42,171 bases of DNA from a virus: IMG/VR virus record IMGVR_UViG_3300021440_000054, positions 1 through 42,171 of that record; one strand, 5' to 3'. Within the stretch, counting starts at the first letter, position 1, and the number at the start of each line of letters is the position of its first letter. The notes beneath the pieces are model-generated. The model was not told the DNA's origin, ran no database searches, and worked only from the letters and a program-made list of their open reading frames with translations. Made by a program: the position numbers and the translations under genes. This document shows positions 34 to 27,371 of this stretch, piece after piece.

Positions 34-250
34 GTATGGCTGAAACAATCGGACGAGCTGCCGCCGCAACATTCACGCTTGGGTTGAGTGAGGCGGTGCG
101 CCCACTCATTAGTAAACCAAAGATTCAAGGGCCGTCCGTGCCGCAGCCGACCACGGCTCCCAGTACGGAGACGCAAGCGGTCCAGCAAGCCTCCTCAGAA
201 GCCTCGGCGCGACGGAATAAGGCGCAAGGCTACCGCAGTACGATCCTCCA
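1..250. repeat. Terminal direct repeat, left copy
   Basis: These 250 bases are repeated at 41922-42171 with a constant offset of 41921. The only difference I see is A at 127 versus G at 42048. The repeat covers the last 11 codons of the large terminase gene and most of the next small gene. It may be a true terminal redundancy (T7-like phages have direct terminal repeats of a few hundred bp) or the overlap left when a circular assembly was linearised. The mismatch shows that the two ends come from different reads or molecules. Confidence 0.95.
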
Positions 251-6511: not shown

Positions 6512-6540
6512 ATGGTAAGCGTCCCTTGAGGAGGAACGTT

Positions 6541-6882
6541 ATGTCTAGACGGTATATGTGGGGTGTACTACTAGCAGTATGTCTTCCCTCTGTGTGTATG
6601 GCCACGACAGCCAGTTGGGACGCGGTAAGCGATCCTGAATTGCAAGGATACCGGCTCTATCGTGCCACGGGGTCCTGCGTCACGCCTGGCGCGTTTGCGA
6701 CAGTCAATACCTATGGCACGGTGACAACTGGGATCGTAACGAATCCCACCACGAACGGGACTTACTGTCACAGATTAACAGCTTTTAATTCCGCTGGCGA
6801 ATCACCCTTTTCTAATATGGTGGAGTTCAAGTATGTGGTGGTCCCTCCCCTTGCCCCTCAAAATCTCAGTGTCAGACCTTGA
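6541..6882 (+). CDS. Exported fibronectin type III-like protein
   Basis: 113 aa from ATG 6541, chosen because AGGAGG lies at 6529-6534. The N-terminus is a Sec-type signal (SRR, then hydrophobic MWGVLLAVCLPSVC, cleavage likely after CMA). The mature part is one FN3-like beta sandwich: ASWDAVSDPELQGYRLYR ... YCHRLTAFNSAGESPFSN. It ends with a Pro-rich tail, PPLAPQNLSVRP, that looks like the start of a second FN3 unit cut short. FN3 domains on phage virions usually bind carbohydrate surfaces weakly. It is the first of five putative surface proteins here with signal peptides. Confidence 0.75.
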   Translation: MSRRYMWGVLLAVCLPSVCMATTASWDAVSDPELQGYRLYRATGSCVTPGAFATVNTYGTVTTGIVTNPTTNGTYCHRLTAFNSAGESPFSNMVEFKYVVVPPLAPQNLSVRP

Positions 6883-6947
6883 GGGGCCTCAAGCGGTGGC
6901 GGTGTTTGCATTGTAAGGATCATATGAACTAACGCAAGGAGAATGAC

Positions 6948-7526
6948 ATGAGTGTTGGATATTGGGAAACATTAGCAACGGTTGCGGCAGATGGGACGGC
7001 ATTGACGGCGGCGGCACGGGCGAGCTTGCTCCAGGGTAGCGCAAAGGCTGGCCTCTATACGCTCCCGGCCAACAAGCTGAGGATCGGTGACGTACTCCAC
7101 CTTCGTGCTTCAGGCCGTATTTCGTGCGTGGTGACGACGCCAGGGTCCATCACGTTTGACCTCTCGGCGGGTGTGGGCGGGACGGCGTTTTTCTCGTCTG
7201 CCGTCATCCCGTTGAACATCGTCGCCAAGACCAACGTGCCGTGGATCTTGGATGTTGAGATGATTGTCCGAGCCGTCGGCAACGCGGCTAATTTGTTTGG
7301 CCAGGGATTCTGGCTGTCTGAGGCCGCCCTCAACGTGGCGGTACCATCGACCGGCCCAGGCCCAGGCGGTAATACCTTGCCCTACAATACGGCTCCGGTG
7401 GTGGGTAGTAACGTCGATTTCTCGATTGCGAATATCATTGATTTCAATTTCACCCAGACCGTGGCCACAGGCAGCGTCACGTTACACAACTACTGCTTGT
7501 CGCTGAAAACCTCGACTGGATTCTAG
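6948..7526 (+). CDS. Putative virion structural protein; donor of duplicated segment
   Basis: 192 aa, beta-rich. An N-terminal helix (TALTAAARASLLQGSAK) precedes PANKLRIGDVLHLRASGRIS at about residues 40-59, the start of a jelly-roll-like domain; the C-terminus carries NIIDFNFTQTVATGSVTLHN, typical of small phage fibre or head proteins. Bases 7065-7141 recur at about 83% identity at 29846-29922, where they form the N-terminus of an early protein. The ribosome binding site AAGGAG is upstream. Likely a virion surface protein; no precise name is possible. Confidence 0.7.
   Translation: MSVGYWETLATVAADGTALTAAARASLLQGSAKAGLYTLPANKLRIGDVLHLRASGRISCVVTTPGSITFDLSAGVGGTAFFSSAVIPLNIVAKTNVPWILDVEMIVRAVGNAANLFGQGFWLSEAALNVAVPSTGPGPGGNTLPYNTAPVVGSNVDFSIANIIDFNFTQTVATGSVTLHNYCLSLKTSTGF
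7065..7141 (+). repeat. Segment duplicated in early region (copy A)
   Basis: Gapless match to 29846-29922 over 77 bp with about 13 mismatches. The last 27 bp (7115-7141) are identical to 29896-29922. The same reading frame is kept in both places. Confidence 0.9.
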
Positions 7527-7537
7527 GGGGAGGCACC

Positions 7538-7642
7538 ATGGCTGTGAAGCGGACTGCACGACGCAAAAAGAAACCTCTCACGATTCAGCAGGCCGTCAAG
7601 CGAGCGTTTGCGGCATTGGCCAAAAAGAAACGGAGGGCGTAG
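7538..7642 (+). CDS. 34-aa highly basic microprotein
   Basis: 34 aa beginning MAVKRTARRKKKPL and ending AALAKKKRRA. About 14 of 34 residues are Lys or Arg, arranged as two basic patches flanking a short amphipathic helix (TIQQAVKRAFAAL). It has a GGGGGAGG ribosome binding site 6 nt upstream and is followed directly by the next ATG at 7643. It resembles a nucleic-acid-binding peptide. A role as a DNA-condensing head peptide or a linker between structural proteins is conjecture. Confidence 0.7.
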   Translation: MAVKRTARRKKKPLTIQQAVKRAFAALAKKKRRA

Positions 7643-8008
7643 ATGGCGCTAAAAACGATCATCATCCCGTCGAATACCTATCAGGTTGGGACGGCCTTAA
7701 TCAATTCCGCTGTCGTCCCTGGCGAGGCCGTGCAAGCGCAGATTACCTTAGATGTCTCACTCTGGACGGATCCAGCGGCACGCATGGATATTGCGCTCGA
7801 ACAGTCATTAGATAATGGCTCAAGCTGGGTGCCTGGTGGAGCAACAACATGGCAACCTAGGCTAGATGGAACCTTTAGATCCAAAGGTCAAATATTAACC
7901 AGTGTAGTTGCAACCTTTCAATGGCAAGCAGGGGTCACGAATGTTCGTGGCTCTATCAGCATTTCAGGCGCGAGTGTGCCGACTAGTGGTACGGTGGTTG
8001 TAAGCTAA
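7643..8008 (+). CDS. Small beta-rich structural protein
   Basis: 121 aa, beginning immediately after the stop of the basic microprotein. The sequence alternates strands (TIIIPSNTYQVGTALINSAV, AQITLDVSLWTD, FQWQAGVTNVRGSISISGAS) as in virion beta-sandwich proteins. No signal peptide, no Cys and no catalytic motif. Its place in the surface-protein block suggests a fibre or decoration component. Confidence 0.65.
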   Translation: MALKTIIIPSNTYQVGTALINSAVVPGEAVQAQITLDVSLWTDPAARMDIALEQSLDNGSSWVPGGATTWQPRLDGTFRSKGQILTSVVATFQWQAGVTNVRGSISISGASVPTSGTVVVS

Positions 8009-8009
8009 T

Positions 8010-9422
8010 ATGTCTCTGAGCGCAGGCGTCAGCACATTCGCAGCGGTGACTGCCACCACAACCGTCACGACTAGCGGAGTGGCGACGCAAGCCAGCGGTT
8101 CAGGGATCTACCTCGCATATTCATTTACGGCGACGTCAACATTTTCATCAATTGGAGATAATAAAGGGAATAGCTATCAACGTGTCGGTTCAGAACAAAC
8201 CGATGTCGGAGGATCGTTAAAATCGGGTGTCTTTTATTGCCCAAACGCTGCGGGAGGATCTGGCCACACAGCAACATTGACCGTCACAGGTAGCGCCGGT
8301 CTCCTGTTGAGTATCGTAGAACTTAAAACAACGAATGGCGCGGGGATTCTCGTCGATCAAGCGACTCAAGGGACCGATGACACTTCAGCCTACACCTCAC
8401 CCAATATCACGACCACAATAGCCAACGAAATTCTCACCGCGTACACGGGCGAGGATTCATCCTTTTCAACGGTCAATCATACTGCTGGGAACTCGTTTGT
8501 CCTGCAAGTTGAAGATACAGACACGGCGATCTGGACAGGCGCGGTAGGAACTCGCGTCGTATCGTCCACAGGGACCTATAATAGTTCCTGGACCATGACC
8601 GGAACGATCAACCACACCAACCAGCATATTGCCTCATTTAGCGAAGTGGCTGGAGGCGTCCTTCCTCCAAGTCCTGCCTTCCGCATGCGGTCTCCCAATC
8701 GTACCCCATTTAAGCGGCGAGGTATTCGGGCCAGCCCCGGTATTGTTGGTCGGGATGATACCAATACTGCCAATATCCCGGACGAGGGCCAGACTGCCAA
8801 CCGCTCCAGGTTTGGGTGGAGTCCGTCACGCCGTCCGCAGATGCGCCGTGGCCGGCGTGCGAGCGCGGCGGCACCAGAGATCATAACTAGCGTTATATTG
8901 ACACCCAGTACTGCAACTCTCACGCTCACAGCGTTTTCGCCCACAGTCTTGACGCCTGTGGTGGTCACGCCAGACATCGCCTCGTTGACGCTGACGGCCT
9001 TTGCGCCAACAGTCTTAACCACTGTGATGGTTATTCCGGATCTGGCAACCCTTGCCCTCACAGCATTTCCCCCAACAGTTCTCACGCCGGTCATAGTTGT
9101 TCCTGACATAGCAGCCTTGACGCTGACGGCCTTTGCGCCGTCCGTCATCGTGGGCGGTGGGGTGGTCCTTACGCCTGACCCGGCGAGTTTAATCCTAACA
9201 GCCTACCCCCCTCTTGTGAGCGGAGGAGGCACTGCTTCCATGGCCGGGGTGGTGCCCATTCGGTATGTCGTTGGAGAGACGGCGAATGTCGTGCCAGTGG
9301 AGACTGTGACCGTGTGGGAGCCTGGGGTTGTCTCTGTGCGTGAACAGGTCGGTCCGGCCAATGTCGTGCCGGTACGTGAAGCTCCAGGGGAAACTCCACG
9401 GGTCAAGGTGTTGGTGGTGTAG
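8010..9422 (+). CDS. Repeat-containing virion surface protein
   Basis: 470 aa in three parts. Residues 1 to about 215 form a beta-sandwich rich in Thr/Ser/Gly, of a type common in phage fibres. Residues about 220-290 are Arg/Pro-rich and basic (RMRSPNRTPFKRRGIRASPG). Residues about 295-407 hold five imperfect repeats of about 20 residues with core xPDxAxLTLTAFAPTVxxxV, followed by a valine-rich tail. The start at 8010 follows the previous stop by 1 nt with a weak ribosome binding site, so translational coupling is likely. Probable adhesion or shaft protein. Confidence 0.7.
   Translation: MSLSAGVSTFAAVTATTTVTTSGVATQASGSGIYLAYSFTATSTFSSIGDNKGNSYQRVGSEQTDVGGSLKSGVFYCPNAAGGSGHTATLTVTGSAGLLLSIVELKTTNGAGILVDQATQGTDDTSAYTSPNITTTIANEILTAYTGEDSSFSTVNHTAGNSFVLQVEDTDTAIWTGAVGTRVVSSTGTYNSSWTMTGTINHTNQHIASFSEVAGGVLPPSPAFRMRSPNRTPFKRRGIRASPGIVGRDDTNTANIPDEGQTANRSRFGWSPSRRPQMRRGRRASAAAPEIITSVILTPSTATLTLTAFSPTVLTPVVVTPDIASLTLTAFAPTVLTTVMVIPDLATLALTAFPPTVLTPVIVVPDIAALTLTAFAPSVIVGGGVVLTPDPASLILTAYPPLVSGGGTASMAGVVPIRYVVGETANVVPVETVTVWEPGVVSVREQVGPANVVPVREAPGETPRVKVLVV
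8893..9230 (+). repeat. Five coding tandem repeats of about 60-66 bp
   Basis: Imperfect in-frame repeats inside the preceding gene, each encoding a variant of TPDIASLTLTAFAPTV. The DNA copies have diverged at third positions, so the array is not recent. The unit number could vary between related phages. Confidence 0.7.
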
Positions 9423-9433
9423 GAGGAGGGTAT

Positions 9434-10579
9434 ATGCAAAAGATCTATCAGATATGCGGGTTCGTTTGGTTGATGATGTTACTGGCCGGGCCAGCCTGGG
9501 CCTTTGAGCACTACGTCAACACCGTCCAAGACCAGCAAGGCAACGCCATTCCTGGGGTGCGCGTCACGGTCTACCTTGCAGGGACCACAACTCTTGCGGA
9601 CCTGTTCAGTGACGACGGATTCACCATGAAGGGCAACCCGTTTACCAATGCGTCGAACGGGGTGTATGACTTTTACGCCCCCAATGGGACCTATGACCTG
9701 AATTTCTATCGCGCAGGCACGGACTTTACCTCAGCCAACGTAGCCTATACGGGGGTAGTGCTGTACGATCCAATGGGTGGCGCGGCCACGCTAGGACTCG
9801 ATGGGAACTTCGACGTGGGGCCAGAGATCAACGGGGCGACGAGCGCGAACCCTGTGATTATTGGCAACGGGGTACAAAAGGTAGACATCGGAGGCGATCC
9901 CACGATAGGGGGATTCATTCGCCCGAACCCGCTCGGCGATGCGACGTTTAACTGTTGGACTGGGTTTAACTGTCTGATTGTTGACCGTGCTACAGGCGCC
10001 ACGGTGCTGACGATTAACCCTGCCGCTGGAAGCAAGAATGCGACGTATCAGTATGGCGCGAACTACAAACCTTTCCTGTCATTTCCGGTTCCACTCGAAC
10101 CTCGTGGGGCGGCAACCGCCGCCTCAGAAAGTCTGACAACGAACGTCCCGAAGCAGCGGTATATGACCGTGACGGACGCGAATACTGACGCGGTTGATTT
10201 CAGCTTCGTCGTCACCGCTCGCATGGCTGGCGCGACCTCGATGACGTTTCGCCTGATTGGAGTGAGTAACAATGCAGCTCCCTCTGGAAACATTGATTTT
10301 GACTGTGCGGCGTATACTTATACACCAGGGACCGATACCATTGCCGCGCACAGTACGACGGGTGAAGTGACGGCGACTCTCACCCCTGCCACGCAATATC
10401 GCCCCGTCGCGGTCACGACGGCGGCGCATACGATTAACGGAGGTCCGTTAGTGGAAGGAGATCTCGTCCTTGGTTCATGCGAGGTGGACGCCACCGCGAC
10501 GACCTCGGCACAAATGACGAATTTTCGGTTGTACGACAACATCAATATCAGCCTGTCAATCAATTCATGGAGTGACTAA
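9434..10579 (+). CDS. Exported tail/fibre-like protein with carboxypeptidase-regulatory-like domain
   Basis: 381 aa, strong GGAGGAGGG ribosome binding site. The N-terminus is a clear signal peptide (hydrophobic FVWLMMLLAGPAWA, AWA cleavage motif). Residues about 24-110 form a transthyretin-like module often found at the start of phage fibres: QDQQGNAIPGVRVTVYLAGT ... LFSDDGFTMKGNPFTN ... YDFYAPNGTYDLNF. The C-terminal 200 residues are a beta-rich domain (TARMAGATSMTFRLIGVSNN). The fibre-like content together with an export signal is unusual. The next gene starts directly after its stop. Confidence 0.75.
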   Translation: MQKIYQICGFVWLMMLLAGPAWAFEHYVNTVQDQQGNAIPGVRVTVYLAGTTTLADLFSDDGFTMKGNPFTNASNGVYDFYAPNGTYDLNFYRAGTDFTSANVAYTGVVLYDPMGGAATLGLDGNFDVGPEINGATSANPVIIGNGVQKVDIGGDPTIGGFIRPNPLGDATFNCWTGFNCLIVDRATGATVLTINPAAGSKNATYQYGANYKPFLSFPVPLEPRGAATAASESLTTNVPKQRYMTVTDANTDAVDFSFVVTARMAGATSMTFRLIGVSNNAAPSGNIDFDCAAYTYTPGTDTIAAHSTTGEVTATLTPATQYRPVAVTTAAHTINGGPLVEGDLVLGSCEVDATATTSAQMTNFRLYDNINISLSINSWSD

Positions 10580-11731
10580 ATGGCGCGCGCGCTAGTTCTC
10601 ATTTTCGCATTTCTCCTATCTTGGACGAGTTCATCTTACGCACAACAGGTGCTCTTTCTAGCTCCGGTTGATGGAACAGGTACGGATGCGGACCCACGCA
10701 TCGCGCGAGGACTGCTGACGACACCTGGCATAGGTTGTATTGATCTTCAAGCTGTGAATCGATTCATCTGTGCAGCAGACAGTTATCCAGCAGGCGTGGT
10801 CCAGCTCGCCACCATCATTGATAGGTTGAACCCAGCCCGCAAAGCAGCCATTGAAGCGGTGCTCGGCATCACGCTGACTGCCGACGACCCGATGGAGGTG
10901 ATCGCTGAATTATTGATTACCCATGCCCGCACCGATGGAACACGCTGGAGGCCGTTACGGAAAGACCCTGACGGTACCTACAAGATCTACCTTGGTAGCC
11001 AAAAAACGCCGCGTTGGCGGCAAACAGCAGCGCTCTATCCCTATATTCGTGACAATGGCATGGTGGCCGATCTGTGGAACAGCACGAAGGAAACCGCGTA
11101 TCTCGCCTACCATTACACCCTCGAACCTGCTGTAGCATGGGCCACGACACTTGCCACGGAAAATTTCACCGGCACAGATGGTGATCTGAATGGGCGCACG
11201 TTCGTCCACCCTTGGACGGAATTTACCGGGACAGCCTGGGCCATTGTCAGCAATCAGGCTAAGGTCACGGCTTCCACAGCCTCCAACGAAGCGCGGGCTG
11301 ATGCAGCGTTGGCCTCAGTGGACCATGCTGTGCAGGCCACGTTTGTTTCGGTGTCGGGGGATCGGTGTTCATTAATTAGTCGCAAGGACAACACTGCGAC
11401 TCGCACGTTTTATATGCTCACAGCAGATCCGAGTTTCGGTGGCTGGCGAATCATGAAATCCGATGCCGGGACCCGCACTATTCTTACTGGTACATCGCAA
11501 ACGATCAATGCAAACGATGTCGGGCGTGTGGAACCCATTGGAAGCTCTATTTCGGGGTATGTGAATAATACCCTCACGGTAGGTCCAACGACTGACACCA
11601 CAATCACCACAGGAACCTATGGCGGAATAGCGACTCATTCCAGCGGCCCCGCTGAAACCTGCATCATCGATGATTGGAGCGCGTATGATATCATTGCGAC
11701 CAGCATGCTGCCGCGACGGAGGACCTATTGA
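10580..11731 (+). CDS. Exported protein with LamG-like C-terminal domain
   Basis: 383 aa. Signal peptide: hydrophobic LVLIFAFLLSW, then SSSYA cleavage. The N-terminal half contains ARTDGTRWRPLRKDPDGTYKIYLG, not recognised; the C-terminal half (from about residue 195, NFTGTDGDLNGRTFVHPWTEF) has the strand pattern of a concanavalin/LamG-like domain ending GGIATHSSGPAETCIIDDWS. Carbohydrate binding is plausible. The start is directly at the preceding TAA, and the stop overlaps the tailspike start, so the three genes form one translational chain. Confidence 0.7.
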   Translation: MARALVLIFAFLLSWTSSSYAQQVLFLAPVDGTGTDADPRIARGLLTTPGIGCIDLQAVNRFICAADSYPAGVVQLATIIDRLNPARKAAIEAVLGITLTADDPMEVIAELLITHARTDGTRWRPLRKDPDGTYKIYLGSQKTPRWRQTAALYPYIRDNGMVADLWNSTKETAYLAYHYTLEPAVAWATTLATENFTGTDGDLNGRTFVHPWTEFTGTAWAIVSNQAKVTASTASNEARADAALASVDHAVQATFVSVSGDRCSLISRKDNTATRTFYMLTADPSFGGWRIMKSDAGTRTILTGTSQTINANDVGRVEPIGSSISGYVNNTLTVGPTTDTTITTGTYGGIATHSSGPAETCIIDDWSAYDIIATSMLPRRRTY

Positions 11732-14538
11732 TGTACTGGTTGGTTCTGGGCCTACTATTTCTAGTTACTGATCCTGCATCGGCTACTCGGTATTGGGTCT
11801 CTACCACCGGGAGCGATGCGAATTCATGCGCTGCCGTGTCGGGCGACAGTGATCCAGGTGTGTACAAGTTGACTCCTGCAAGCGGTGTTGCCTGCCTCGC
11901 AACTGCTGGTGATATTTTGACGATCAGGGCGGGTAGTTACACGGGGGCGAATGCCAAAATTACGATGGCCGTCAGTGGTGCTGCCGGTAATCCTATTATT
12001 ATTGAAGGCGATCCGAGCTCTGCCACAGGTTGCGCGTTAGCCCATACGTGTGGGACGATTCTGACCCCAACCAGCATCAACAGCATAATATCCGGGAGTC
12101 ATGTTGTTATTCGTAAAATTGATTTCAATGGGGTCAACGCGAAAAACCTCTACATACTCCAGGTTTCGGAACCGGCGACCGATGTTCTCGTTGAAGATGT
12201 TGAGGTGCGGGATACACAAATTACCGTCGGCAGCAGTACCGCAGCGAGTTGTTTGTCCGCGACCCCATTATCCTCTTTTGTGACCTACCGTCGTGTGCAC
12301 GCACACCACTGCGGCAACACGGTGGCTGTTAAGGGGCACGGTGGGTATCTTTCAGGTGATGACATCACGATTGAGTACTCATGGTTCCATCACCATGCCA
12401 ATATGGGCGTGCAGATGTTCAACTCAACTGCCGTGTCCAACGGCCTCGCAGATCGGTCCATTATTCGCAACAGTCTATTCGAGGATAACGGCAGATCGGG
12501 AATTGTCATCTCTGGGCGTGATGCGATCATAGATAACAATGTAGTGAGACGTAACGCCACCAATGGCATCGATTTGTTTTACAATGCTCTTCGGTCTAAG
12601 GTTATAAATAATGTATTTTACAACAATGCCACGAACACAATCGGCCTAGGTGGTACAAACGTGGCGGTAGGCAGCCATGGCACTGCGACGGACTCGATTG
12701 TGCAGAACAATGTGATCTTCGGGACAGGTGGCGGGGTCTTTATTTTCAGCGGATTTGGCACCACCAATGTCACTATCTCGTACAACGCCTGTGCGTCCGC
12801 CACGTCATGCGGTACCACAGGCAAGGTAACGATTGCGGCATTGACTGATATTTTTGTCTCCACCAGCGATTTTCGACTAAAAGCCGGCTCGGCTGCCATT
12901 AATGCCGGGTTAGCTATTAGCGGGTTCCCTTATAATGGCTCAGCGCCAGACATCGGGGCATACGAATCCATTCCTAATCCAGCGTGTTCGATTACGACTA
13001 ATAAAATTACGTGTATTTTCCCCATGAACCTCAACGTTCCAATTCAGAACTTGTCTACGACGGGGGTAACAGTTGGTTGTACCGGATCTGCATGTCCTGG
13101 GTCACTAACTGTAAGCGCTGTGTCCCGTGTTACAGCAACGGATACCCATGTCGAAATAGTTGTGGCTGGATTTGCCGGGAATGCGTGCGCAGCGGCCAAT
13201 CAAAACTTGTCGTTGAACTATGACAGTGCCACAGGATCATGGTCTGATAGTGCATCTGTAGGTGGGACCACAAACCAAACGATCTTTTCGTTCACTGGGC
13301 TGGCGGTCACAAACCAATGTACCGGATCTGGACCGACTGGGTACCCGGCTGGCTATCAGCTCTACTACAAGCTCGACGAGAACACTGGCACGAACGCGAA
13401 TGATGAATCTGCGAATAATCTCGACGGCACTTTGACTAATTCTCCAGCCTGGGGAGCTGGCAAAACCGGGTACGGGGTGGTTACGACATTAGGAACAACT
13501 CAGTATGTGGCAATCCCCTACGGAAATGCGGTGAACCCTTCGACCCAGAGCATGACGATTGCGTTTGGCGTGAATGTGCCCGCAGGACAGGAATCCGCGA
13601 CTCGGGGAGAGTTTGGTACGAGTGTTGGGACCAACCAACGTGTCGCCATTATCGGGCAGGGTGGAACTTGGCGTCTTAGCATCCAGTCGAGTGGGGCCAG
13701 TAGCGGGGCCTCCAGTCTCGCTGTCACGAGCGGATGGAATCACTTGTGCTTGGTGCTCGACAGTGGCACGGATACCGCCACCCTCTACCTGAATGGGGTG
13801 GCTGGAACGGGGAGTGCATCGAAGGCTTATACTTCTTATACCCTAGCGAGTAATTTTAAACTTGGATTGTATGACATCAACACAGCTCCAGGTGGAACGT
13901 ATGACGATCCGATTATCTATACGTCCGTGCAGTCGTGCGCGGACATTTATACGGCATTCCAGGCTGCAGCCACACCAGCAGCGGGGACGCTCACGCAGTC
14001 GGCGGTGCAACCTGAAGGGGTCTTCTATTTCAACGGCCTGCCGTGGGATCTTGGGCGCCTACAGCCTACCAATGATGTAGTCGCGAACGGAGGCATTGCC
14101 CTCGTTTTCCAGGTCACGTGCGAAAATATCACCGACTGCGATCCGACTGCCTTTAAACTCGTGTATTCCAAAAATGAACCGGCGTCGGTTGCGGCCTCAT
14201 CTGGACGATTGAAGCAGGTCCCGAATGTGGCAACATCGGACGGGATCTCGATGTGGGGGGCGACGAGCGAGAATGGCCTGAATACTGGGCCAACTTCTAC
14301 GCGGCTCGTCGGGAGTTGTGCCGTGACGACCGGCTCAACACAAGTGACAGCCGATCATATTCCGAGCGTTGATCTTCCGCAAAATGGGTGCGTGATGCTC
14401 CGGTATCTTATCAGGGTTGGCAATATCCCGGGTGGGTATCTAGAACTTCGCTTGTTGACGGAAGGCGGGTTGCCACTCAACGGCGGCTATGCCGATGCAC
14501 GTATTAACGTGGTGAATCACCGAGGGAGCGCCTTCTAA
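11731..14538 (+). CDS. Exported beta-helix and LamG tailspike-like protein
   Basis: 935 aa from ATG 11731, with GGAGG at 11718-11722; a TTG 3 nt earlier is possible. Order: signal peptide (LVLGLLFLVTDPASA); right-handed parallel beta-helix, about residues 20-415, with repeats like SIIRNSLFEDNGRSGIVISG and the family-typical end APDIGAYES; an Ig-like stretch about 420-530; a LamG/concanavalin-like domain about 540-746 (YKLDENTGTNANDESANNLD ... YLNGVAGTG); and a C-terminal beta domain. This is the architecture of polysaccharide-degrading or -binding tailspikes. No podovirus head-binding N-terminus is present, and the signal peptide is odd for a virion protein. Confidence 0.8.
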   Translation: MYWLVLGLLFLVTDPASATRYWVSTTGSDANSCAAVSGDSDPGVYKLTPASGVACLATAGDILTIRAGSYTGANAKITMAVSGAAGNPIIIEGDPSSATGCALAHTCGTILTPTSINSIISGSHVVIRKIDFNGVNAKNLYILQVSEPATDVLVEDVEVRDTQITVGSSTAASCLSATPLSSFVTYRRVHAHHCGNTVAVKGHGGYLSGDDITIEYSWFHHHANMGVQMFNSTAVSNGLADRSIIRNSLFEDNGRSGIVISGRDAIIDNNVVRRNATNGIDLFYNALRSKVINNVFYNNATNTIGLGGTNVAVGSHGTATDSIVQNNVIFGTGGGVFIFSGFGTTNVTISYNACASATSCGTTGKVTIAALTDIFVSTSDFRLKAGSAAINAGLAISGFPYNGSAPDIGAYESIPNPACSITTNKITCIFPMNLNVPIQNLSTTGVTVGCTGSACPGSLTVSAVSRVTATDTHVEIVVAGFAGNACAAANQNLSLNYDSATGSWSDSASVGGTTNQTIFSFTGLAVTNQCTGSGPTGYPAGYQLYYKLDENTGTNANDESANNLDGTLTNSPAWGAGKTGYGVVTTLGTTQYVAIPYGNAVNPSTQSMTIAFGVNVPAGQESATRGEFGTSVGTNQRVAIIGQGGTWRLSIQSSGASSGASSLAVTSGWNHLCLVLDSGTDTATLYLNGVAGTGSASKAYTSYTLASNFKLGLYDINTAPGGTYDDPIIYTSVQSCADIYTAFQAAATPAAGTLTQSAVQPEGVFYFNGLPWDLGRLQPTNDVVANGGIALVFQVTCENITDCDPTAFKLVYSKNEPASVAASSGRLKQVPNVATSDGISMWGATSENGLNTGPTSTRLVGSCAVTTGSTQVTADHIPSVDLPQNGCVMLRYLIRVGNIPGGYLELRLLTEGGLPLNGGYADARINVVNHRGSAF

Positions 14539-14720
14539 TGGCCACGCTCCAATACTGGCAAACGAAGTGTAAAGCGTGCGGAAGGATGCTGGAAAAGGAA
14601 ACGTTGGCTTCGCCGTGGAAATGCTGGGGGTGTGAGTGGTCTACGGAAGACGTGAGCCGGAATAATCGCTGGGACGGCGTGAGCCAGAAACCGGGGGAGC
14701 GAACGGGGGAACATTTATGA
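14538..14720 (+). CDS. Zinc-ribbon microprotein
   Basis: 60 aa with CKACG (residues 10-14) and CWGCEW (29-34), a C-x2-C...C-x2-C zinc ribbon. The start overlaps the tailspike stop and the end overlaps the lysozyme start, so it is embedded in the late operon. Function unknown; several similar Cys-paired microproteins occur elsewhere in this genome. Confidence 0.7.
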   Translation: MATLQYWQTKCKACGRMLEKETLASPWKCWGCEWSTEDVSRNNRWDGVSQKPGERTGEHL

Positions 14721-15133
14721 GAGAAACACTTGTGCAACAGATCCAGCGGCACGAAGGACTACGCCTTAAACCGTACTATTGCACGGCTGGGAAACTGACC
14801 ATTGGTTATGGGCGTAATCTTGAGGATGTCGGGATCACCGCGCACGAAGCTGCGTTCCTCTTGACGGGCGATCTTATGCGCTGCGAGGACGACTGCTTGC
14901 ATGCCTTCCCCTGGTTTGCCGATCTGTCTGAACCAAGGCAGCATGTCATGCTCAATATGTGCTTCAACCTTGGGCTGGCTGGGCTCAAGAAATTTGCGAA
15001 GTTCTTAACGGCGGTCGAGCTGGGCAACTATGACACGGCAGCCGATGAGATGCTGGATAGTCTCTGGGCCAAGCAGGTGAAGAGTCGGGCGCTGGAATTA
15101 GCGCAGATGATGCGGGGCATAGAAACTGTGTAA
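14717..15133 (+). CDS. Endolysin, GH24 lysozyme
   Basis: 138 aa. T4-type phage lysozyme: HEGLRLKPYYCTAGKLTIGY with catalytic Glu13, Cys22 in place of the T4 Asp20, and Thr28; the E-8aa-C-5aa-T pattern is a known variant of the family. Further family blocks are NMCFNLGLAGLKKF and the C-terminal W..Q...RA. There is no N-terminal signal or SAR helix, so it needs a holin for export. It heads the lysis cassette. Confidence 0.93.
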   Translation: MRETLVQQIQRHEGLRLKPYYCTAGKLTIGYGRNLEDVGITAHEAAFLLTGDLMRCEDDCLHAFPWFADLSEPRQHVMLNMCFNLGLAGLKKFAKFLTAVELGNYDTAADEMLDSLWAKQVKSRALELAQMMRGIETV

Positions 15134-15184
15134 CCTGGCGGATCGGCCAGTAGCGCCAATCGTTGGAGAAAGGTATACCATGAC

Positions 15185-15439
15185 ATGGCCGAGCAGGATC
15201 AGGAAAATAGAGAATTTGGTCCTACCTACAAATCTCTATTTCTTGGTGCTTGCATTGTTATTGGGTCTACTTTTGGGTGGTGGCTTACGAATTTTATTGC
15301 TGCCACCGAATCTATCCATGCCAAACATGAGCATAGAATCGCCGAGCTGGAAGCAAGGGCACTTAGAGAAACCTGGGAGCGAGAGGCAATCCGCGATCAG
15401 GTTGACGCACTCCTTGAACAAGGGAAACATAAGCCATGA
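15185..15439 (+). CDS. Small membrane protein, lysis-cassette
   Basis: 84 aa: a short charged N-terminus, one hydrophobic segment (SLFLGACIVIGSTFGWWLTN), then a charged helix (HRIAELEARALRETWEREA). This resembles holin or antiholin accessory proteins. It ends in an ATGA overlap with the holin candidate. A competing ORF in another frame (15180-15443) starts 5 nt earlier and also has a hydrophobic stretch; I prefer 15185 because of its amphipathic helix and the ATGA stop/start overlap. Confidence 0.65.
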   Translation: MAEQDQENREFGPTYKSLFLGACIVIGSTFGWWLTNFIAATESIHAKHEHRIAELEARALRETWEREAIRDQVDALLEQGKHKP

Positions 15440-15711
15440 GTGACGAACACAGCACACCCCCGCTGAAGTCGAGACGCAACCTCGATTGGTTCATGGTACT
15501 ACTTACGTGGTACATCGTGTCTGGGTTTATGGCCGTCATGTTGGCATTGTTTCTGAAGGAAGTCCCTGCAGGGAACAAGGAAGTCCTCATCTATATGGCC
15601 GGTCAGCTATCAGGCTTTGCCGGGGCGATGGTGGCAGTGTGGTCTACTACCACGCATGAAAGCAGTAAGAAATCGGATGTCATCGCACAAGCGCAACCAG
15701 TCAAACTCTAG
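15436..15711 (+). CDS. Holin candidate, two transmembrane segments
   Basis: 91 aa. Two membrane segments, WFMVLLTWYIVSGFMAVMLA and VLIYMAGQLSGFAGAMVAVW, separated by a short polar turn (KEVPAGNKE), with a polar C-terminus THESSKKSD. The pattern VP.GNKEVL.Y..GQL.G......W is typical of class II phage holins next to GH24 endolysins. It would form the membrane lesions that release the lysozyme. Confidence 0.75.
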   Translation: MSDEHSTPPLKSRRNLDWFMVLLTWYIVSGFMAVMLALFLKEVPAGNKEVLIYMAGQLSGFAGAMVAVWSTTTHESSKKSDVIAQAQPVKL

Positions 15712-15720
15712 GGAGGATCT

Positions 15721-16134
15721 ATGCGAATCTGGGCAATCGGAATTCTGGTGTTGGGTCTGTCGTCCTGTGTAACACCATACAAACAGACCGATGGGAAGTA
15801 TATCAAAACGTCTCAAACGGAAGTCAGGTCACTGTTTGGCACGAATCAGAGCTTTGCCAGGTTGGAACGGTGCGATGGGCCGGCGAAGAAAGTGCTCTGG
15901 TACAGTGACGGCGATTTCACAAACTGCGTGATGCTGACGAAGGCCGATCAGGATGAATGGGAACATGGTTATTCCCGTGGCGCAGGTCCTGAGATTGCGG
16001 GTGCCGCGATCATGGGCGGCTCGATTGGAATTGGCGCGGCGTTGAGCGGTGGGAGTGCAGCGGCTTCGGCTGGCGCTAGTGCCACGAATACCGCAATTCA
16101 GACCGTGACAGGCGGGAAGCACCATCGGAGGTAG
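15721..16134 (+). CDS. Small lipoprotein with glycine-zipper tail
   Basis: 137 aa, GGGAGGAT ribosome binding site. The N-terminus is a lipoprotein signal with lipobox LSSC (Cys16). The C-terminal third is Gly/Ala-rich (GAGPEIAGAAIMGGSIGIGA) and could be a glycine-zipper membrane segment. This is not the Rz1 partner, which is embedded in the next gene. It may help outer-membrane disruption or alter the envelope against superinfection; both are guesses from topology. Confidence 0.65.
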   Translation: MRIWAIGILVLGLSSCVTPYKQTDGKYIKTSQTEVRSLFGTNQSFARLERCDGPAKKVLWYSDGDFTNCVMLTKADQDEWEHGYSRGAGPEIAGAAIMGGSIGIGAALSGGSAAASAGASATNTAIQTVTGGKHHRR

Positions 16135-16137
16135 AGC

Positions 16138-16785
16138 ATGTACGCATTCCTGGGCAGCATCGCTGGCAAGATCGGCCTAGGACTCCTGGCCGCTATTGCG
16201 GTGGGTGGAGCCCTCTACGCCTACAACGCACGGCAGCAATCTATCGGGGAGAACCGCGTTGAGGCCCGTCATGCTGAAGCGGTCCAGGCGCAGACCGAGC
16301 ACGTGAAGATCGTCGATATGACACTTGATGACCAGCGGTTGCAAGCTGTCGAGAAAGCCAGTGCTGAGAAGGACAAATTCAACGCCAAACTCGTTGAGTC
16401 GAACCGTGCCTATGTGGCTGCGAACGCGAAACTCAAAGCGGCGCTGGCGGCACAGGCGCACGTCCAAGAGGTACCTAATGAGACTGAAATTATCCCTGTT
16501 CTCTGTGTGGTCCCTGATCGGTTGCTTGATCGTGTGGATGAGCTTGGCCGGATGCTCAACCACCTATCCAACAGTCGTGTGCCCGGAGATACCGGAACCG
16601 CCGGCCAGCCTGAAGCCGAAGGTGCTGGACCCGTTGCCTGCGATACGCTCGTCCAGCGCATCGAAGTCCTCACTTCCCGACTTGGTAACGCCATGATTGA
16701 ACATGGAGAGTTGTGGGACTATTCGATGAAGCAATATGAAACCTATGCCGCATTTAAGAAGGGGGTGAACCGTGAAGCCAAGTAG
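16138..16785 (+). CDS. Rz: Inner-membrane spanin (Rz-like)
   Basis: 215 aa: an N-terminal membrane anchor (KIGLGLLAAIAVGGALYAYN), then a long periplasmic coiled coil (residues about 30-110, AEKDKFNAKLVESNRAYVAA) and a second helical part. This topology, its place after lysozyme and holin, and the Rz1 gene embedded in another frame identify it as the i-spanin. It fuses the inner and outer membranes with Rz1 at the end of lysis. The start codon has GGAGGTAGAGC upstream. Confidence 0.88.
   Translation: MYAFLGSIAGKIGLGLLAAIAVGGALYAYNARQQSIGENRVEARHAEAVQAQTEHVKIVDMTLDDQRLQAVEKASAEKDKFNAKLVESNRAYVAANAKLKAALAAQAHVQEVPNETEIIPVLCVVPDRLLDRVDELGRMLNHLSNSRVPGDTGTAGQPEAEGAGPVACDTLVQRIEVLTSRLGNAMIEHGELWDYSMKQYETYAAFKKGVNREAK
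16478..16696 (+). CDS. Rz1: Outer-membrane lipoprotein spanin (Rz1-like), embedded in Rz
   Basis: 72 aa, entirely inside the Rz gene in another frame, with AAGAGG at 16466-16471 as ribosome binding site. It has a lipoprotein signal (SLIGCLIVWMSLAGC, lipid Cys26) and a short Pro-rich mature part (VVCPEIPEPPASLKP), the classic Rz1 layout. The frame is open upstream to 16325, but ATG 16478 is the start that gives the lipobox at the right distance. Confidence 0.88.
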   Translation: MRLKLSLFSVWSLIGCLIVWMSLAGCSTTYPTVVCPEIPEPPASLKPKVLDPLPAIRSSSASKSSLPDLVTP

Positions 16786-17203
16786 GCCCTGGCAGGACTG
16801 GCTCAGTATCGATTTGGCCTTGCTGGTCATCGTCGTGCTGGGCATGATTGGTCTATTTATTATGGCGGCGTTTCTACCGTTGCGTTCCCATGCCTCGGCC
16901 TGCCTGTCCATCGATGTCCCGCCTGGAGCAGTGGTCAATCAGCCAGACGGCGATACCTTCCACGTCTTCGCGTTTCAGCCTGGAGGTGTGGTCAAGATCA
17001 GGGTCGAAGGGGTGGATACGCCGGAGCGGCATGAGCCGAAATGGGCGGAAGCCAAGGCGTTTACGAGGGCTTGGTTAGCGAAGGGACCGTTCAAGGTGAG
17101 CACCTGCGGGAAGCCTACCATTGATAGAATTGTGGGAACGGTGGAGCGTGACGGAGAAACGCTGGCGCAGGCCCTCAAGGGCGCTCAGCTTGTAAAGGAG
17201 TAG
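16772..17203 (+). CDS. Membrane-anchored staphylococcal-nuclease-like protein
   Basis: 143 aa from a GTG start overlapping the Rz end. Residues about 14-38 are a membrane segment (LALLVIVVLGMIGLFIMAAF). The rest is a compact SNase fold: DGDT (59-62), KIRVEGVDTPE with Arg77, Asp82, Thr83 and Glu85 at the positions of the calcium and catalytic residues, AFTRAWL, and DRIVGTVERDG...LAQAL. All key residues appear present. It would act on the periplasmic side. Possible roles are degrading DNA at the envelope or late host DNA damage; the role is not known. Confidence 0.82.
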   Translation: MKPSRPWQDWLSIDLALLVIVVLGMIGLFIMAAFLPLRSHASACLSIDVPPGAVVNQPDGDTFHVFAFQPGGVVKIRVEGVDTPERHEPKWAEAKAFTRAWLAKGPFKVSTCGKPTIDRIVGTVERDGETLAQALKGAQLVKE

Positions 17204-17205
17204 CC

Positions 17206-20730: not shown

Positions 20731-20731
20731 C

Positions 20732-21154
20732 ATGGAGGCAATTGGTTTGGCAGGAATGGGCGCACAACTCGCCGGGACGGCGGTAGGCACCGTGGGCAAT
20801 GTGATGGCCGCCGACACCAACGCGAAGGTGCTCGACGCCCAAGCGAGAGGGATCGAGCAGGACACGAACTTTCAGCTCAGGCAGTTTGGGAGGGAGGCCA
20901 AGCTCAAGGCCGGGTCGAATGTCGCCACGACGGCAGCAGCCGGGATTGATACCACGCGGGGATCGTCCCTATTTGCGGAACTGGACTTTGCGAAACAGGC
21001 AGCGCTTGAGTCTGAATCCATCCGGCGTAGTGGCAAGATGGCCGCTGATTCTAAGCGCTTCCAAAGTCGCCTCACGAAGCAACAAATTCCGTTCGATATT
21101 ATGAACGGGGTCACGCAAGGGGCGAGTATCTTGACAAAGCTAGCAGGTAAATAA
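20732..21154 (+). CDS. Internal virion protein, gp14-like
   Basis: 140 aa. A hydrophobic, Gly/Ala-rich N-terminal segment (GLAGMGAQLAGTAVGTVGNV) is followed by an Ala-rich helical body with AAAGIDTTRGSSLFAELDFA. This matches small ejection proteins in the gp14 position, which insert into the outer membrane at infection. The order gp13-14-15-16 is kept here. The stop overlaps the next start. Confidence 0.78.
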   Translation: MEAIGLAGMGAQLAGTAVGTVGNVMAADTNAKVLDAQARGIEQDTNFQLRQFGREAKLKAGSNVATTAAAGIDTTRGSSLFAELDFAKQAALESESIRRSGKMAADSKRFQSRLTKQQIPFDIMNGVTQGASILTKLAGK

Positions 21155-22857: not shown

Positions 22858-25823
22858 TGTCAGACACGATTGATGAGCACTATCGCGCACTGAGGAAGAA
22901 CACCGATACATGGCAACGTGGCTATATGGCGATGCAGGACTCGGGTGGATATGGCACACCGACCGATCCAGCGACCTCCATTACACTCGGCAACCAGCAA
23001 GCGCCGACAGCGCGTCAACCACAGGCTGGAGAAGGGGAAACGCTGGCTCCTGCCGTTCCGTTTCCATCCGGTGAATTCACCAGTGAACCGCCCATCACAA
23101 AACTAGGGAAAGCCATAGGTGCCAAGGGCAAGGAGCTGGCCGCCGCGATTCACCCTGGCGTGAGGGCGGCAGCAAAGACGCTAGGACTTGATGACACCCA
23201 GGCCGATACGATGGCCACAGGCTTGACCGAGTTCATAGCCGGATTGCCTGGGCCGGATGCCAGCGAAGGACAGGCGGCGCTAGAGACTAGCTTAGCGGCA
23301 TTGCCGGGGATTGGGATGATGACCAGGGCAGGGAAGGCAGCGGGGAAGGCGGGCAAGTTTTCCGCCACGCTCGGCGGTCTGTCGCCTGAAGATGTCGCCA
23401 AGATCAGGGAACATACGGCGAACTTTGAACAAAGCAGTAAGCAGCTTCAGAAGGATCTGACTGAGGCGCGGCGAGGGGTGCGTACCGATCAGCAAGTCCT
23501 CGCCGATTCCATCAGCCCAGAGGCCATGACGGTCGAACACTTCCTCGACCTCAAGCCGGGGTCGATTGCTAAAGATTCCGATGTGGTCAAGATCAAAAAG
23601 ATGTTCAAGGATCTCGCTGAGCCGGTGCGCTTGCTCGCCAAAAGAGCAGACGATAATCCGAGAGACACGCAAGCAATCATGTCAGTGCTTGAACAAATCC
23701 AGAATGTTAGGACTGGCCTACTGAAGCTCTCGGGGGTCTATGCGGAAACAGGCCGATCTGAGCGGCAGCTCTCATCTAAACTGCCGATATCCGAGGCACC
23801 AGCAGTAGACTCACCTGAACGGGTGCGGATCAGTGACCCGTACATTCAGCAATGGCTTGATTTCTTTCAGAAGCAATCCGAACTTGCCAAGATGGGTGCT
23901 CCAGCAATGACGCTTGAGAAAATGATTTCCGCTTTAGCTACGCTGAAGTCTCCAGAAGAGTTCATTAGACTCCTTAAGGCGATGGATAAGCCCACGAAAT
24001 TCGATATGTTCATTGAGTACTGGATTAACGGGTTACTCTCTGGGCCGCAAACCCACGTCACCAACATGGTAAGCAACGCGGCTACGCAGGTCTGGGGCAT
24101 TCCAGAACGGGCGCTGGCGTCGTTCTTTAGCCGGTCAGTGAGACCTAGTGAAACAACGGCCATGATCGGCGGAGTGGTCGAATCGTTTGGTGATGCGATG
24201 CGGCTCTCGTGGAAAGCATTCAAGGAAGAAAAGGCCCAGTTCGGCGGGTCCAAGATGGAGAACCCGCGACGCGCGATTACCGGCGACGCGCTGGAATTAA
24301 CTGGTATTCCAGGCCGAGCGGTAGACTTGTTGGGCTCTATAGTGCGACTCCCAGGGCGAGCCTTGCTTGCTGAAGATGACTTCTTTAAGGGCATTGCCTT
24401 TCGGTCTGAGTTGCGAGCCTTGGCGCGGCGTGAATCGCTGGCACGAGTGGCGGAAGCACAGCTCAGCGGGTCCGCTGCACGGGCGCAAATCGAGTTCATC
24501 GAAAAGAATATCCTGGACCACCCAGAACAATTCCCATCCATTATTGAAGACGCGCAACGGTACGCCTCCTATGTGACCTTCACGAAGGATCTTGGCCCGA
24601 ACGGGCAGAAAGTGGCGATGGCCTTAAGCACGCCGATAGGGCGCCTTGTGGCTCCGTTCGTGAAGACGCCGATCAATATCTTCAAGTTTGCCGGGGAGCG
24701 AACGCCCTTCGCGTTAGCTTCGCGTGCCGTGCGTGATGAGATTAAGGCGGGCGGCGAACGTCGAGCCCTCGCTTTGGCTAAGATCTCGCTCGGCTCGATG
24801 GTCATGGCCTACTCCGCCAAACTAGCAGCAGAAGGCACAATCACAGGTGGAGGTCCGGCTGACCCTGAGCTATTGCGCGACAAGCGTGATACAGGCTGGC
24901 AGTCCTATTCTGTCAGGGTTGGCGAGCACTATTACCGCTATGGACGGTTAGAGCCGATAGGTACTATACTCGGGGCAGCGGCAGATATGGCAGACCTGAT
25001 GGGGCAACTTGACCAAGGCGACGCGGAAGAGCTGGCGTCCGCTGTGGTGGTAGCGATCTCACGGAATATCAGTGAGAAAACCTTCATCAAAGGGCTTGCT
25101 GGCACACTGGACGCGATAACATCTCGGGATATTCACAAGGTCGAACACTTCTTTTCTAAGGAACTCCCGACCATTCTGCCATTCTCGGCGCTGTCCGGGC
25201 AACTTGCACGGCAAAGCGATCCGACCGTGCGGAAAGTGTCCCCAGACCATAGTTACGAAATCATGGATCGGGAACTCAAGTTTATCCTTGATTCCTTCAA
25301 GGCTAAGGTGCCTGGGTACTCGAAAGATATCCCCCCTAAGCGCAACCTGTTTGGTGAGGCGATCTTGCTGGAGGGTGGACTAGGGCCTGACATGATCTCC
25401 CCTGTCTACACGACCAAAGAAAAGACAGCGGTGGTCTCGCGTGAGATAGTCCGGCTCAAGCTGTCCCTTGATCTACCGTCCAAGGATATTGACGGGGCAC
25501 CGTTGAACAATGAGGAATACGACGCCTACCAAGTGCTGGCTGGGGCAAAGCCGATATTGGGAAACATGACGTTACGGCAGAAGCTCGAATCCGTGATGAA
25601 CGGGGATATCTACAAGGAAGCATCTGGCGGACCTGATGGAGGGAAAGCCTATTTCTTGAGGTTTTGGGTAACGGCCTATCGTGAACGGGCGAAGGAGATC
25701 ATGAAAGACAAAAACCTTTCTAGGCAGTACCTTAACAAGGAGTTCCCAATTATTCCGCAACTCATGGATCTGAAACGCCAGCAGAGCATGCAGAAGTTCA
25801 ACGCCCCAGTTGAGGCTAGGTAA
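22857..25823 (+). CDS. Large internal virion protein, gp16-position
   Basis: 988 aa. The Gln/Pro-rich, probably disordered N-terminus (about residues 25-85) is followed by an Ala-rich helical part, and then by a conserved segment INGLLSGPQTHVTNMVSNAA at about residues 388-407 that I associate with large polyvalent/ejection proteins of podoviruses. The second half is helical with basic ends (RRESLARVAEAQLSGSAARA). No lysozyme or transglycosylase motif is apparent, so peptidoglycan cleavage during entry is not supplied here. The start overlaps the gp15-like stop. Confidence 0.75.
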   Translation: MSDTIDEHYRALRKNTDTWQRGYMAMQDSGGYGTPTDPATSITLGNQQAPTARQPQAGEGETLAPAVPFPSGEFTSEPPITKLGKAIGAKGKELAAAIHPGVRAAAKTLGLDDTQADTMATGLTEFIAGLPGPDASEGQAALETSLAALPGIGMMTRAGKAAGKAGKFSATLGGLSPEDVAKIREHTANFEQSSKQLQKDLTEARRGVRTDQQVLADSISPEAMTVEHFLDLKPGSIAKDSDVVKIKKMFKDLAEPVRLLAKRADDNPRDTQAIMSVLEQIQNVRTGLLKLSGVYAETGRSERQLSSKLPISEAPAVDSPERVRISDPYIQQWLDFFQKQSELAKMGAPAMTLEKMISALATLKSPEEFIRLLKAMDKPTKFDMFIEYWINGLLSGPQTHVTNMVSNAATQVWGIPERALASFFSRSVRPSETTAMIGGVVESFGDAMRLSWKAFKEEKAQFGGSKMENPRRAITGDALELTGIPGRAVDLLGSIVRLPGRALLAEDDFFKGIAFRSELRALARRESLARVAEAQLSGSAARAQIEFIEKNILDHPEQFPSIIEDAQRYASYVTFTKDLGPNGQKVAMALSTPIGRLVAPFVKTPINIFKFAGERTPFALASRAVRDEIKAGGERRALALAKISLGSMVMAYSAKLAAEGTITGGGPADPELLRDKRDTGWQSYSVRVGEHYYRYGRLEPIGTILGAAADMADLMGQLDQGDAEELASAVVVAISRNISEKTFIKGLAGTLDAITSRDIHKVEHFFSKELPTILPFSALSGQLARQSDPTVRKVSPDHSYEIMDRELKFILDSFKAKVPGYSKDIPPKRNLFGEAILLEGGLGPDMISPVYTTKEKTAVVSREIVRLKLSLDLPSKDIDGAPLNNEEYDAYQVLAGAKPILGNMTLRQKLESVMNGDIYKEASGGPDGGKAYFLRFWVTAYRERAKEIMKDKNLSRQYLNKEFPIIPQLMDLKRQQSMQKFNAPVEAR

Positions 25824-25832
25824 GGAGGATCA

Positions 25833-27371
25833 ATGGTACACGTCATCATTCTATGTCTCAGCCTTCTACTCGCAAGTCCTGTCCTGGCGACGGTGCCAGA
25901 ATCCCCGGCAGCTGATCGGTATACGGCGAACGGGTCAACAACCTCCTACACCTACACGTTTAAGGTCTATTCCAAAATAGATCTTGCCGTGTATGTGGAT
26001 AACGTGTTGAAGGTTCTCGACGTGGATTACACGGTGTCGGGGGTTGCCAGCGATGGCGGCGGCGTAGTGATCTTCACCTCTCCGCCGGCAAACGGGTTGA
26101 ACGTCACGATCTTACGGCACCAACTGAACCAACAGTACAGCGTCTACACGCAAAACGGCTTCAGCCCTCGGCAGGTCGAGAAAGATCTCGATAAGCTCAC
26201 GATGCAGGTGCAACAGCTCAGCGAGCAACTCACTAGGGCCTTGAAATTCCTTCCTGCATCTACCTCTGTAGCAACCGTAGACACGCCCACGGTCGGAGCG
26301 TTTGCGAGGGCCAAGGTTGGGGGCGGGGTCGATTGGGCAACCCCCAGTAACAGCGTGATCTCCACGCCGGTGTCTATTGCGAACGGGGGAACAGGTGCGA
26401 TTACAGCCCCACTTGCGTTAACTGCACTCGGGGCCTCACCGGATACCGGCTCCACAAAAATCAACGCCAAGGGCGATCTCCTAGCAGGAACGTCGGATAA
26501 CACCTGGGACCGTGTAGCGGTGGGTGCAAACGGATCAGTGCTCACGGCGAACTCTGCACTTTCGACTGGTATGGGGTGGGTGGCTGCCGGTTCGGCCTTG
26601 ATGTCTACCGGCGATGTGAAGATGACGATTAAGACGACGGCTGATTCAGGCTGGGTCTTGATGAATGATGGCACGATTGGAGACGCTAGCAGTGCGGCCT
26701 CGAACCGTGCGAACGACGACACTCAAGCCCTCTTTGAGCTGATCTGGAATAACATCTCCGATACCTGGGCTCCGGTGGTTGGTGGGCGTGGCGGTTCATC
26801 CGCCGCCGACTTTGCAGCGCATAAAAAGATTACGCTTCCCCGTTCGCTCGGGCGCGTCCTGGCTGGCTACGGGGCTGCCGTCTCGCAAGTGACCGGCAGT
26901 AATGCACAGGTTGATACGACCGGGAACCTCTTTACCGTTCCGTCCAACAACTCGACTTGGATTACCGGGATGCCGGTCACGTTCACTCTGACGAGCGGCA
27001 CGATTACCGGCCTGACATCCGGCAATACCTACTATGTGGTGCGGAATAACTCGACCACGATCTATCTGGCTTCGTCCTTGGCGAACGCGCAGAACAGCAC
27101 CGTGATTGACCTCACGGCCAAGTCTAGCCCAGTCTGGTCGATTACCTATACCGGGACCACTCGGGCGCTAGGCGAGTTCGCCGGGGAGAACGATCACGCC
27201 ATGAGCATTACCGAACTCCTAGCCCATACTCACGGCTCAGCAACCACCACCGGCGCAAATGGTCCGGCTGGCGGCTCACTCGGCGGAGGCGTCACAGGAT
27301 CGACCGGAGGGAACGCATGGCAAAATACCCTCCAGCCAACCCTATTCGTCAACACCATGATTAAGCTCTAG
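25833..27371 (+). CDS. Tail fibre with T7-type N-terminus, signal peptide and collar-like C-terminus
   Basis: 512 aa, AAGGAGG ribosome binding site. Residues 1-19 form a signal-like segment (VIILCLSLLLASPVLA). Residues about 24-145 match the podovirus tail-fibre head (DRYTANGSTTSYTYTFKVYS, ILRHQLNQQYSVYTQNG, then KDLDKLTMQVQQLSEQL). Residues about 260-512 resemble a tail-collar/tip region with TLPRSLGRVLAGYG and HTHGS, ending QPTLFVNTMIKL; an insert of about 80 residues lies between. It should attach to the nozzle. A cleaved signal on such a fibre is unexpected. The stop shares CTAG with the converging gene. Confidence 0.85.
   Translation: MVHVIILCLSLLLASPVLATVPESPAADRYTANGSTTSYTYTFKVYSKIDLAVYVDNVLKVLDVDYTVSGVASDGGGVVIFTSPPANGLNVTILRHQLNQQYSVYTQNGFSPRQVEKDLDKLTMQVQQLSEQLTRALKFLPASTSVATVDTPTVGAFARAKVGGGVDWATPSNSVISTPVSIANGGTGAITAPLALTALGASPDTGSTKINAKGDLLAGTSDNTWDRVAVGANGSVLTANSALSTGMGWVAAGSALMSTGDVKMTIKTTADSGWVLMNDGTIGDASSAASNRANDDTQALFELIWNNISDTWAPVVGGRGGSSAADFAAHKKITLPRSLGRVLAGYGAAVSQVTGSNAQVDTTGNLFTVPSNNSTWITGMPVTFTLTSGTITGLTSGNTYYVVRNNSTTIYLASSLANAQNSTVIDLTAKSSPVWSITYTGTTRALGEFAGENDHAMSITELLAHTHGSATTTGANGPAGGSLGGGVTGSTGGNAWQNTLQPTLFVNTMIKL

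Follow-up and report, generated by a model that had tools for sequence, protein, structure and literature searches.

Gene content of the window

The window, the whole 42,171-nucleotide stretch of viral DNA analysed here, encodes five proteins with Sec-type signal peptides at their predicted N-termini, namely four surface-type proteins (P0001–P0004) and a tail fibre (P0005; Table 1). Its first and last 250 bases are identical except for one mismatch, and because this terminal repeat stands at both ends, the window was taken as a complete genome of ~41.9 kb. It is the complete genome of an epsilon15-like podovirus, an uncultured virus of bacteria. The head-tail connector gives the Pfam match that marks epsilon15-like podoviruses (PF12236, E 4e-86), and the gene order of epsilon15 (NC_004775) is kept: connector, scaffold, major capsid protein (MCP), cement protein, tail tube A/B, gp13–17 and fibre. 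An extra island containing surface-type genes and the endolysin gene lies between the cement protein and the tail-tube genes. The tail-tube genes are followed by internal virion proteins and then the fibre, and a terminase homologue is located at the right end. The closest cultured connector proteins are only ~32% identical to that of the window, so the virus is a distant, uncultured relative. No prophage or host was found in the bacterial and archaeal genomes scanned with MCP and connector profiles.

Table 1. Features of the window; a slash marks the predicted cleavage site.
Feature	Position	Strand	Remarks
Terminal repeat, left copy	1..250	+	1 mismatch to 41922-42171
Variable island, cement protein to tail-tube gene	6083..17203	+	signal-bearing and lysis genes; defined by synteny
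P0001 signal peptide	6541..6603	+	MSRRYMWGVLLAVCLPSVCMA/TT; h-region 2.5, charge +2; site uncertain, Cys at -3
P0001, small FN3-like putative exported protein, 113 aa	6541..6882	+	2 Cys in mature chain
P0002 signal peptide	9434..9502	+	...LLAGPAWA/FEHYVNT; score 12.2
P0002 N-terminal domain	9503..9724	+	homologous to the extreme N-termini of tailspikes of Serratia phage MTx and Escherichia phage ep3 (tblastn)
P0002, putative exported spike-like protein, 381 aa	9434..10579	+	4 Cys in mature chain
P0003 signal peptide	10580..10642	+	...SSSYA/QQV; score 8.1
P0003, putative exported protein, 383 aa	10580..11731	+	4 Cys in mature chain
P0004 signal peptide	11731..11784	+	MYWLVLGLLFLVTDPASA/TRYW; score 7.5
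P0004, putative exported right-handed beta-helix protein, 935 aa	11731..14538	+	PF13229 E 1.2e-13; 20 Cys in mature chain
Endolysin (phage lysozyme)	14717..15133	+	Pfam PF00959 E 2.6e-13
P0005 signal peptide, 19 aa	25833..25889	+	MVHVIILCLSLLLASPVLA/TVPESP; score 6.4-6.7; without counterpart in 77 of 80 homologous fibres
Epsilon15/T7-type docking domain, from mature residue 1	25890..26225	+	phrog_1640 E 9e-30; Dpo31 E 9e-13
P0005, sole epsilon15-type fibre	25833..27371	+	at the epsilon15 gp20 position after internal virion genes; 0 Cys in mature chain
Small protein with Sec signal	27368..27685	-	MKYLLAAVLLTVGLSSAHA/GPDS; SD GGGAGG; directly after fibre
Protein with strong Sec signal	34063..34440	+	MIVLLALVLTLPTVAQA/ATV; score 12.0; C-terminal hydrophobic stretch
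Terminal repeat, right copy	41922..42171	+	pairs with 1..250

Some further genes were annotated by eye. The last part of the island (16772-17203) encodes a protein in which a hydrophobic N-terminal segment precedes a putative staphylococcal-nuclease-like sequence (VDTPERHEPKWAEAKAFTRAWL); it gave no Pfam match, and the product is possibly a membrane-bound or exported nuclease. A 288-aa protein encoded on the minus strand (37903-37037) resembles ArdC-type antirestriction/zinc metallopeptidases and has an HELTHSTGH motif.

Signal peptides and the fibre junction

N-termini were scored using a von Heijne (1986) type weight matrix, based on the EMBOSS table and coded for this analysis. With E. coli proteins, the scorer recovered 14/17 secreted proteins and flagged 0/45 cytoplasmic and 3/19 membrane proteins; chance signals were rejected as an explanation, since 0/51 spurious ORFs of the window were flagged. 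The five ORFs named in the original prediction are all open at the coordinates given, and a Shine-Dalgarno (SD)-like GGAG/GAGG motif stands at normal spacing before each. No SD-bearing internal start codon occurred among the first 45 codons of these ORFs, and no ribosome-binding site was found from which a form lacking the signal could be made. A start-codon artefact was rejected because the called starts have SD motifs and the internal starts do not.

The hydrophobic runs that had been predicted are real, each comprising at least 9 residues after a short n-region, with h-region hydrophobicity of 2.5–3.5 in all five proteins, and the calibrated scorer supports four of the cut sites. The predicted A-x-A-like sites, with small residues at -3/-1, stood for P0002–P0005 (AWA, SYA, ASA, VLA) but not for P0001, where the putative cut CMA/TT has an atypical Cys at -3 that scores poorly in the 1986 matrix, leaving a clear h-region and an uncertain site. 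Lys or Arg is present in the n-regions of P0001–P0003 and absent from those of P0004 and P0005. As for the proposed folds, the beta-helix of P0004 is firm and the T7-type fibre P0005 proved to be of the epsilon15/T7 type, but the FN3 match of P0001 is below the Pfam cutoff (fn3, E 0.012), and neither the LamG-like label of P0003 nor the carboxypeptidase-regulatory label of P0002 found Pfam or PHROG support. P0003 gave no matches in Pfam, PHROG or phages, and its AlphaFold2 model (mean pLDDT 32) was too poor for use. No recognised docking domain was found in P0001, P0003 or P0004.

Beyond the five, two more ORFs of the window have good Sec signals, one on the minus strand directly after the fibre gene and one further downstream (Table 1). 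Small minus-strand signal genes were also seen after the gp14 homologues in two relatives, L008 (13991-13788) and L009 (11728-11414). The Ig-like protein encoded at 8010-9422 in the island has no signal, whereas a similar protein in a relative (L006:11621, by eye) has a signal and a C-terminus (DVVPVRMLMGVGL) with the same VVPVR motif. The C-terminal 60 aa of the window protein form a repeat (VVPIRYV...NVVPVETV...VVPVR) that shares 53–69% identity with a 63-aa protein standing on its own (L027:8261-8452) and with the C-terminal ends of proteins that differ elsewhere (L009:7104-7436, L027:9542-10192), and that possibly serves as a shared particle-binding tag.

P0005 occupies the same genome position and gene order as epsilon15 gp20, and has the N-terminal docking domain of ~115 aa characteristic of epsilon15/T7-type fibres, the single copy in the genome. 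AlphaFold2 predicted this domain to be folded (pLDDT ~80–89), the model being good over the domain only. In fibres of this type the domain usually lies at the extreme N-terminus without an export signal, whereas in P0005 it is preceded by 19 aa of signal. The docking-domain alignment begins at residue 20 of P0005 and at residue 2 of epsilon15 gp20, of signal-less IMG/VR relatives and of the tailspike Dpo31, whose structure is solved (PDB 28lx/8ck1). Known epsilon15/T7-type fibres begin M-T-V, and P0005 thus carries a Sec signal in place of Met, with the shared domain starting at mature residue 1; cleavage at the predicted site VLA/TVP would give the same N-terminus as that of signal-less fibres after Met removal. 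P0002 presents a similar arrangement. Residue 1 of its mature chain aligns with Met1 of the MTx tailspike (FEHYVNTVQDQQGN versus the tailspike start MELKTFFAQDKFGN, no gap), while the MTx and ep3 tailspikes have no signal and a different body. In two unrelated spike/fibre N-termini, therefore, a signal stands exactly at the first residue. These alignments support the view that the signals are additions before known fibre N-termini. The alternative of a known docking helix was rejected because homologous fibres without a signal begin at the same point. The original premise that ordinary phage fibres do without an export signal is true of 77/80 epsilon15-type fibres in IMG/VR.

Signal-bearing proteins in related genomes

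Scans of IMG/VR with P0004, P0002 and gp15 gave no matches, and relatives were therefore reached via the MCP profile (38 capsid relatives) and the fibre domain in IMG/VR. Signals at the same junction were present on 3/80 IMG/VR epsilon15-type fibres (L040/L097, L077 and L082), of which the L077 fibre fell below the scorer cut-off and was judged by eye (h-region 3.3, N-terminal extension). These signals differ in sequence, and the window provides a fourth case. All signal-bearing epsilon15-type fibres sit in epsilon15-like genomes, and the L077 record (41 kb) resembles the window in having one docking-domain fibre, which is signal-bearing. The signal on the fibre was absent in every cultured relative examined.

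Signals were concentrated in the island. With redundant loci removed and a stricter scorer cut-off applied, they were found on 24/104 island genes compared with 2/100 core genes and 2/105 other plus-strand genes (Fisher p ~2e-6), and 12/20 loci had at least one signal-bearing island gene. Signal-bearing counterparts of P0001, P0002 and P0004 all occur in L031 (16582 for P0001; 11421-13661, matching the C-terminal half of P0002; 14417-16585 for P0004), and further FN3-like signal-bearing counterparts of P0001 are encoded at L006:12629, L056:8757, L048:12554 and L058:2224. L006 and L056 contain four signal-bearing island genes each. Judged from these sequences, the island is a hypervariable cargo site in which the protein bodies differ widely and the signal is the common property. 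Loose scorer calls for a 63-aa MAAFATFAA family, as well as for internal proteins resembling gp14, were taken to be false positives. The conserved 63-aa protein (MAAFATFAAAE..) is found in the islands of many relatives (L031:11219-11410, L034:9867-10058, L010:7747-7938 and others), and no counterpart was recognised in the window.

Even cysteine counts are favoured in exported bacterial proteins (PMC7678975). Among Cys-containing mature signal-bearing proteins of the non-redundant set, 22 had even and 2 odd counts, compared with 57 even and 79 odd, hence no preference for even counts, among signal-less proteins. A curated signal-bearing set gave 25 even, 2 odd and 4 with zero Cys (p = 3e-6; Fisher test against signal-less proteins, 5e-7); the parity sets include some distant homologues, so the cases behind the p-values are not fully independent. 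In a check on other phages, a set that includes membrane proteins gave 10 even and 4 odd (p = 0.09). Cysteines of the signal-bearing fibres lie in close pairs in L040 (140/155, 285/289, 421/437, 475/490), L082 (166/213, 362/372, 468/480, 519/530, 665/682) and L077 (5/23, 198/209, 267/277, 344/371). The pair 5/23, gained by L077, lies inside the docking domain, which is Cys-free in 57/59 signal-less fibres; this is the pattern that would result if the entire fibre, its docking domain with it, folded under oxidising conditions. Parity and pairing together point to real export with disulfide folding in the periplasm. Since the signals are real, added, recurrent and accompanied by this cysteine signature, export is favoured over chance or relic signals; we regard export of the signal-bearing proteins as well supported and very probable on this sequence evidence.

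Probable export and possible roles of the signal-bearing proteins

In the textbook view, the tails and fibres of tailed phages are assembled in the cytoplasm. Signal peptides are common on phage lysis proteins. We propose that the fibre and the four surface-type proteins of this epsilon15-like podovirus would be made as Sec precursors in a presumably Gram-negative host, which for this account would have to be a diderm with a DsbA system. Translocation and cleavage by signal peptidase would bring them to the periplasm, where the Cys-containing members could form disulfides; the fibre would acquire the TVP... N-terminus of its Met-less signal-less relatives, with its docking domain intact. Fibreless virions would meanwhile be built in the cytoplasm. 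Once the cell is opened by the endolysin, whose gene shares a block with the signal-bearing genes, mature fibres, perhaps with other exported proteins, would dock on the tail as the last step. We give an even chance to this account, the most likely one, in which fibres are exported and folded before docking onto virions at lysis. A place for the fibre in the virion is favoured by its intact docking domain and by the lack of another such fibre in the complete genome. Against late docking, P0005 itself has no Cys, P0001, P0003 and P0004 show no recognised docking domain, the parity check on other phages was weaker, and the fibres of most relatives have no signal, so that export is unneeded by this tail type. 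The broader proposal is that a group of phages finishes its virions outside the cytoplasm, with fibres that are secreted through Sec, undergo oxidation in the periplasm and at lysis snap onto particles still without fibres, the signal being an exchangeable module gained several times before standard docking domains. We consider its prospects slightly short of even.

The main rival to late docking is display on the host surface, in which the exported proteins would stay with the host and coat the infected or lysing cell without becoming virion parts, and could serve in receptor masking, superinfection exclusion, polysaccharide trimming or keeping progeny off debris. The evidence for export applies equally to this explanation, P0001, P0003 and P0004 bring no docking domain, and secreted adhesins of bacteria commonly have beta-helix, FN3 or Ig-like folds; P1312 ORF22, with its signal peptide and carbohydrate-binding module, has been so interpreted (PMC4569894). 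We nevertheless consider host display unlikely, if well worth weighing, given that the exported set includes the only epsilon15-type fibre of the genome, with the docking domain at mature residue 1, and that the virion would miss its expected receptor-binding protein unless 8010-9422 or another protein supplies the function. A division of the set, the fibre and P0002 docking late on the virion and P0001, P0003 and P0004 residing at the host surface, would agree with the presence of known spike/fibre N-termini in P0005 and P0002 only. There is a slim chance of such a division; against it, the island genes form one gene block with one N-terminal architecture, and travel as a set in L031, L006 and L056.

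Two other readings dispense with working export signals. The hydrophobic N-terminus could stay uncleaved and act in the virion as a docking or membrane helix, consistent with the lack of basic n-region residues in P0004 and P0005 and with a low-confidence AlphaFold2 helix at residues 2–12 of P0005. However, epsilon15, HTVC010P, most IMG/VR relatives and Dpo31 have no such helix and start at the same point, non-homologous proteins have the signal features alone in common, and the Cys parity would be left without explanation. Alternatively, the signals could be unused relics from captured genes for bacterial secreted proteins. P0004-type beta-helices do resemble bacterial secreted proteins (PF13229), including secreted enzymes, but the fibre is a phage protein before which signals recur with different sequences, counterparts in L031 and L040 keep their signals at 25–39% signal identity, and the L077 docking domain has acquired a Cys pair. 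Because of the junction and the cysteines, both the uncleaved helix and the relic are very improbable.

The single parts of the late-docking proposal are familiar, and the combination of a signal with a docking-domain fibre is new; searches of the open-access literature found no such fibre described. P22 tailspikes are made in the cytoplasm and are the final addition to particles that are complete in other respects, and the tails of the archaeal virus ATV grow extracellularly, providing precedents for last-step spike addition and for morphogenesis outside the cytoplasm, respectively; to our knowledge, such signals have not been described in ATV. PblA and PblB of Streptococcus phage SM1 are tail-type proteins that reach the surface of a Gram-positive host after exit by lysis; unlike the signal-bearing proteins of the window, they are not known to carry signal peptides. 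Phage-encoded proteins with a predicted N-terminal signal and a surface-binding or hydrolase domain, as in the window, include P1312 ORF22 (PMC4569894) and the PBR31 gp40 esterase (PMC10975493). These two are single genes with no known virion docking domain, whereas the window has a whole set of signal-bearing genes, the one for its only tail fibre among them.

If fibres cross the periplasm, disulfides become usable, the fibres are kept apart from receptor precursors in the cytoplasm as well as from the packaging machinery, and the envelope could be coated before lysis. Recognition and expression of receptor-binding proteins from environmental genomes would then change, with export and oxidising conditions needed. 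Sister phages with and without a signal on the same docking domain constitute a clean natural experiment. Among cultured distant relatives, Pelagibacter phage Baldr (L153) has two genes with signal-like N-termini (658-1293 and 1475-2851), which adjoin the terminase.
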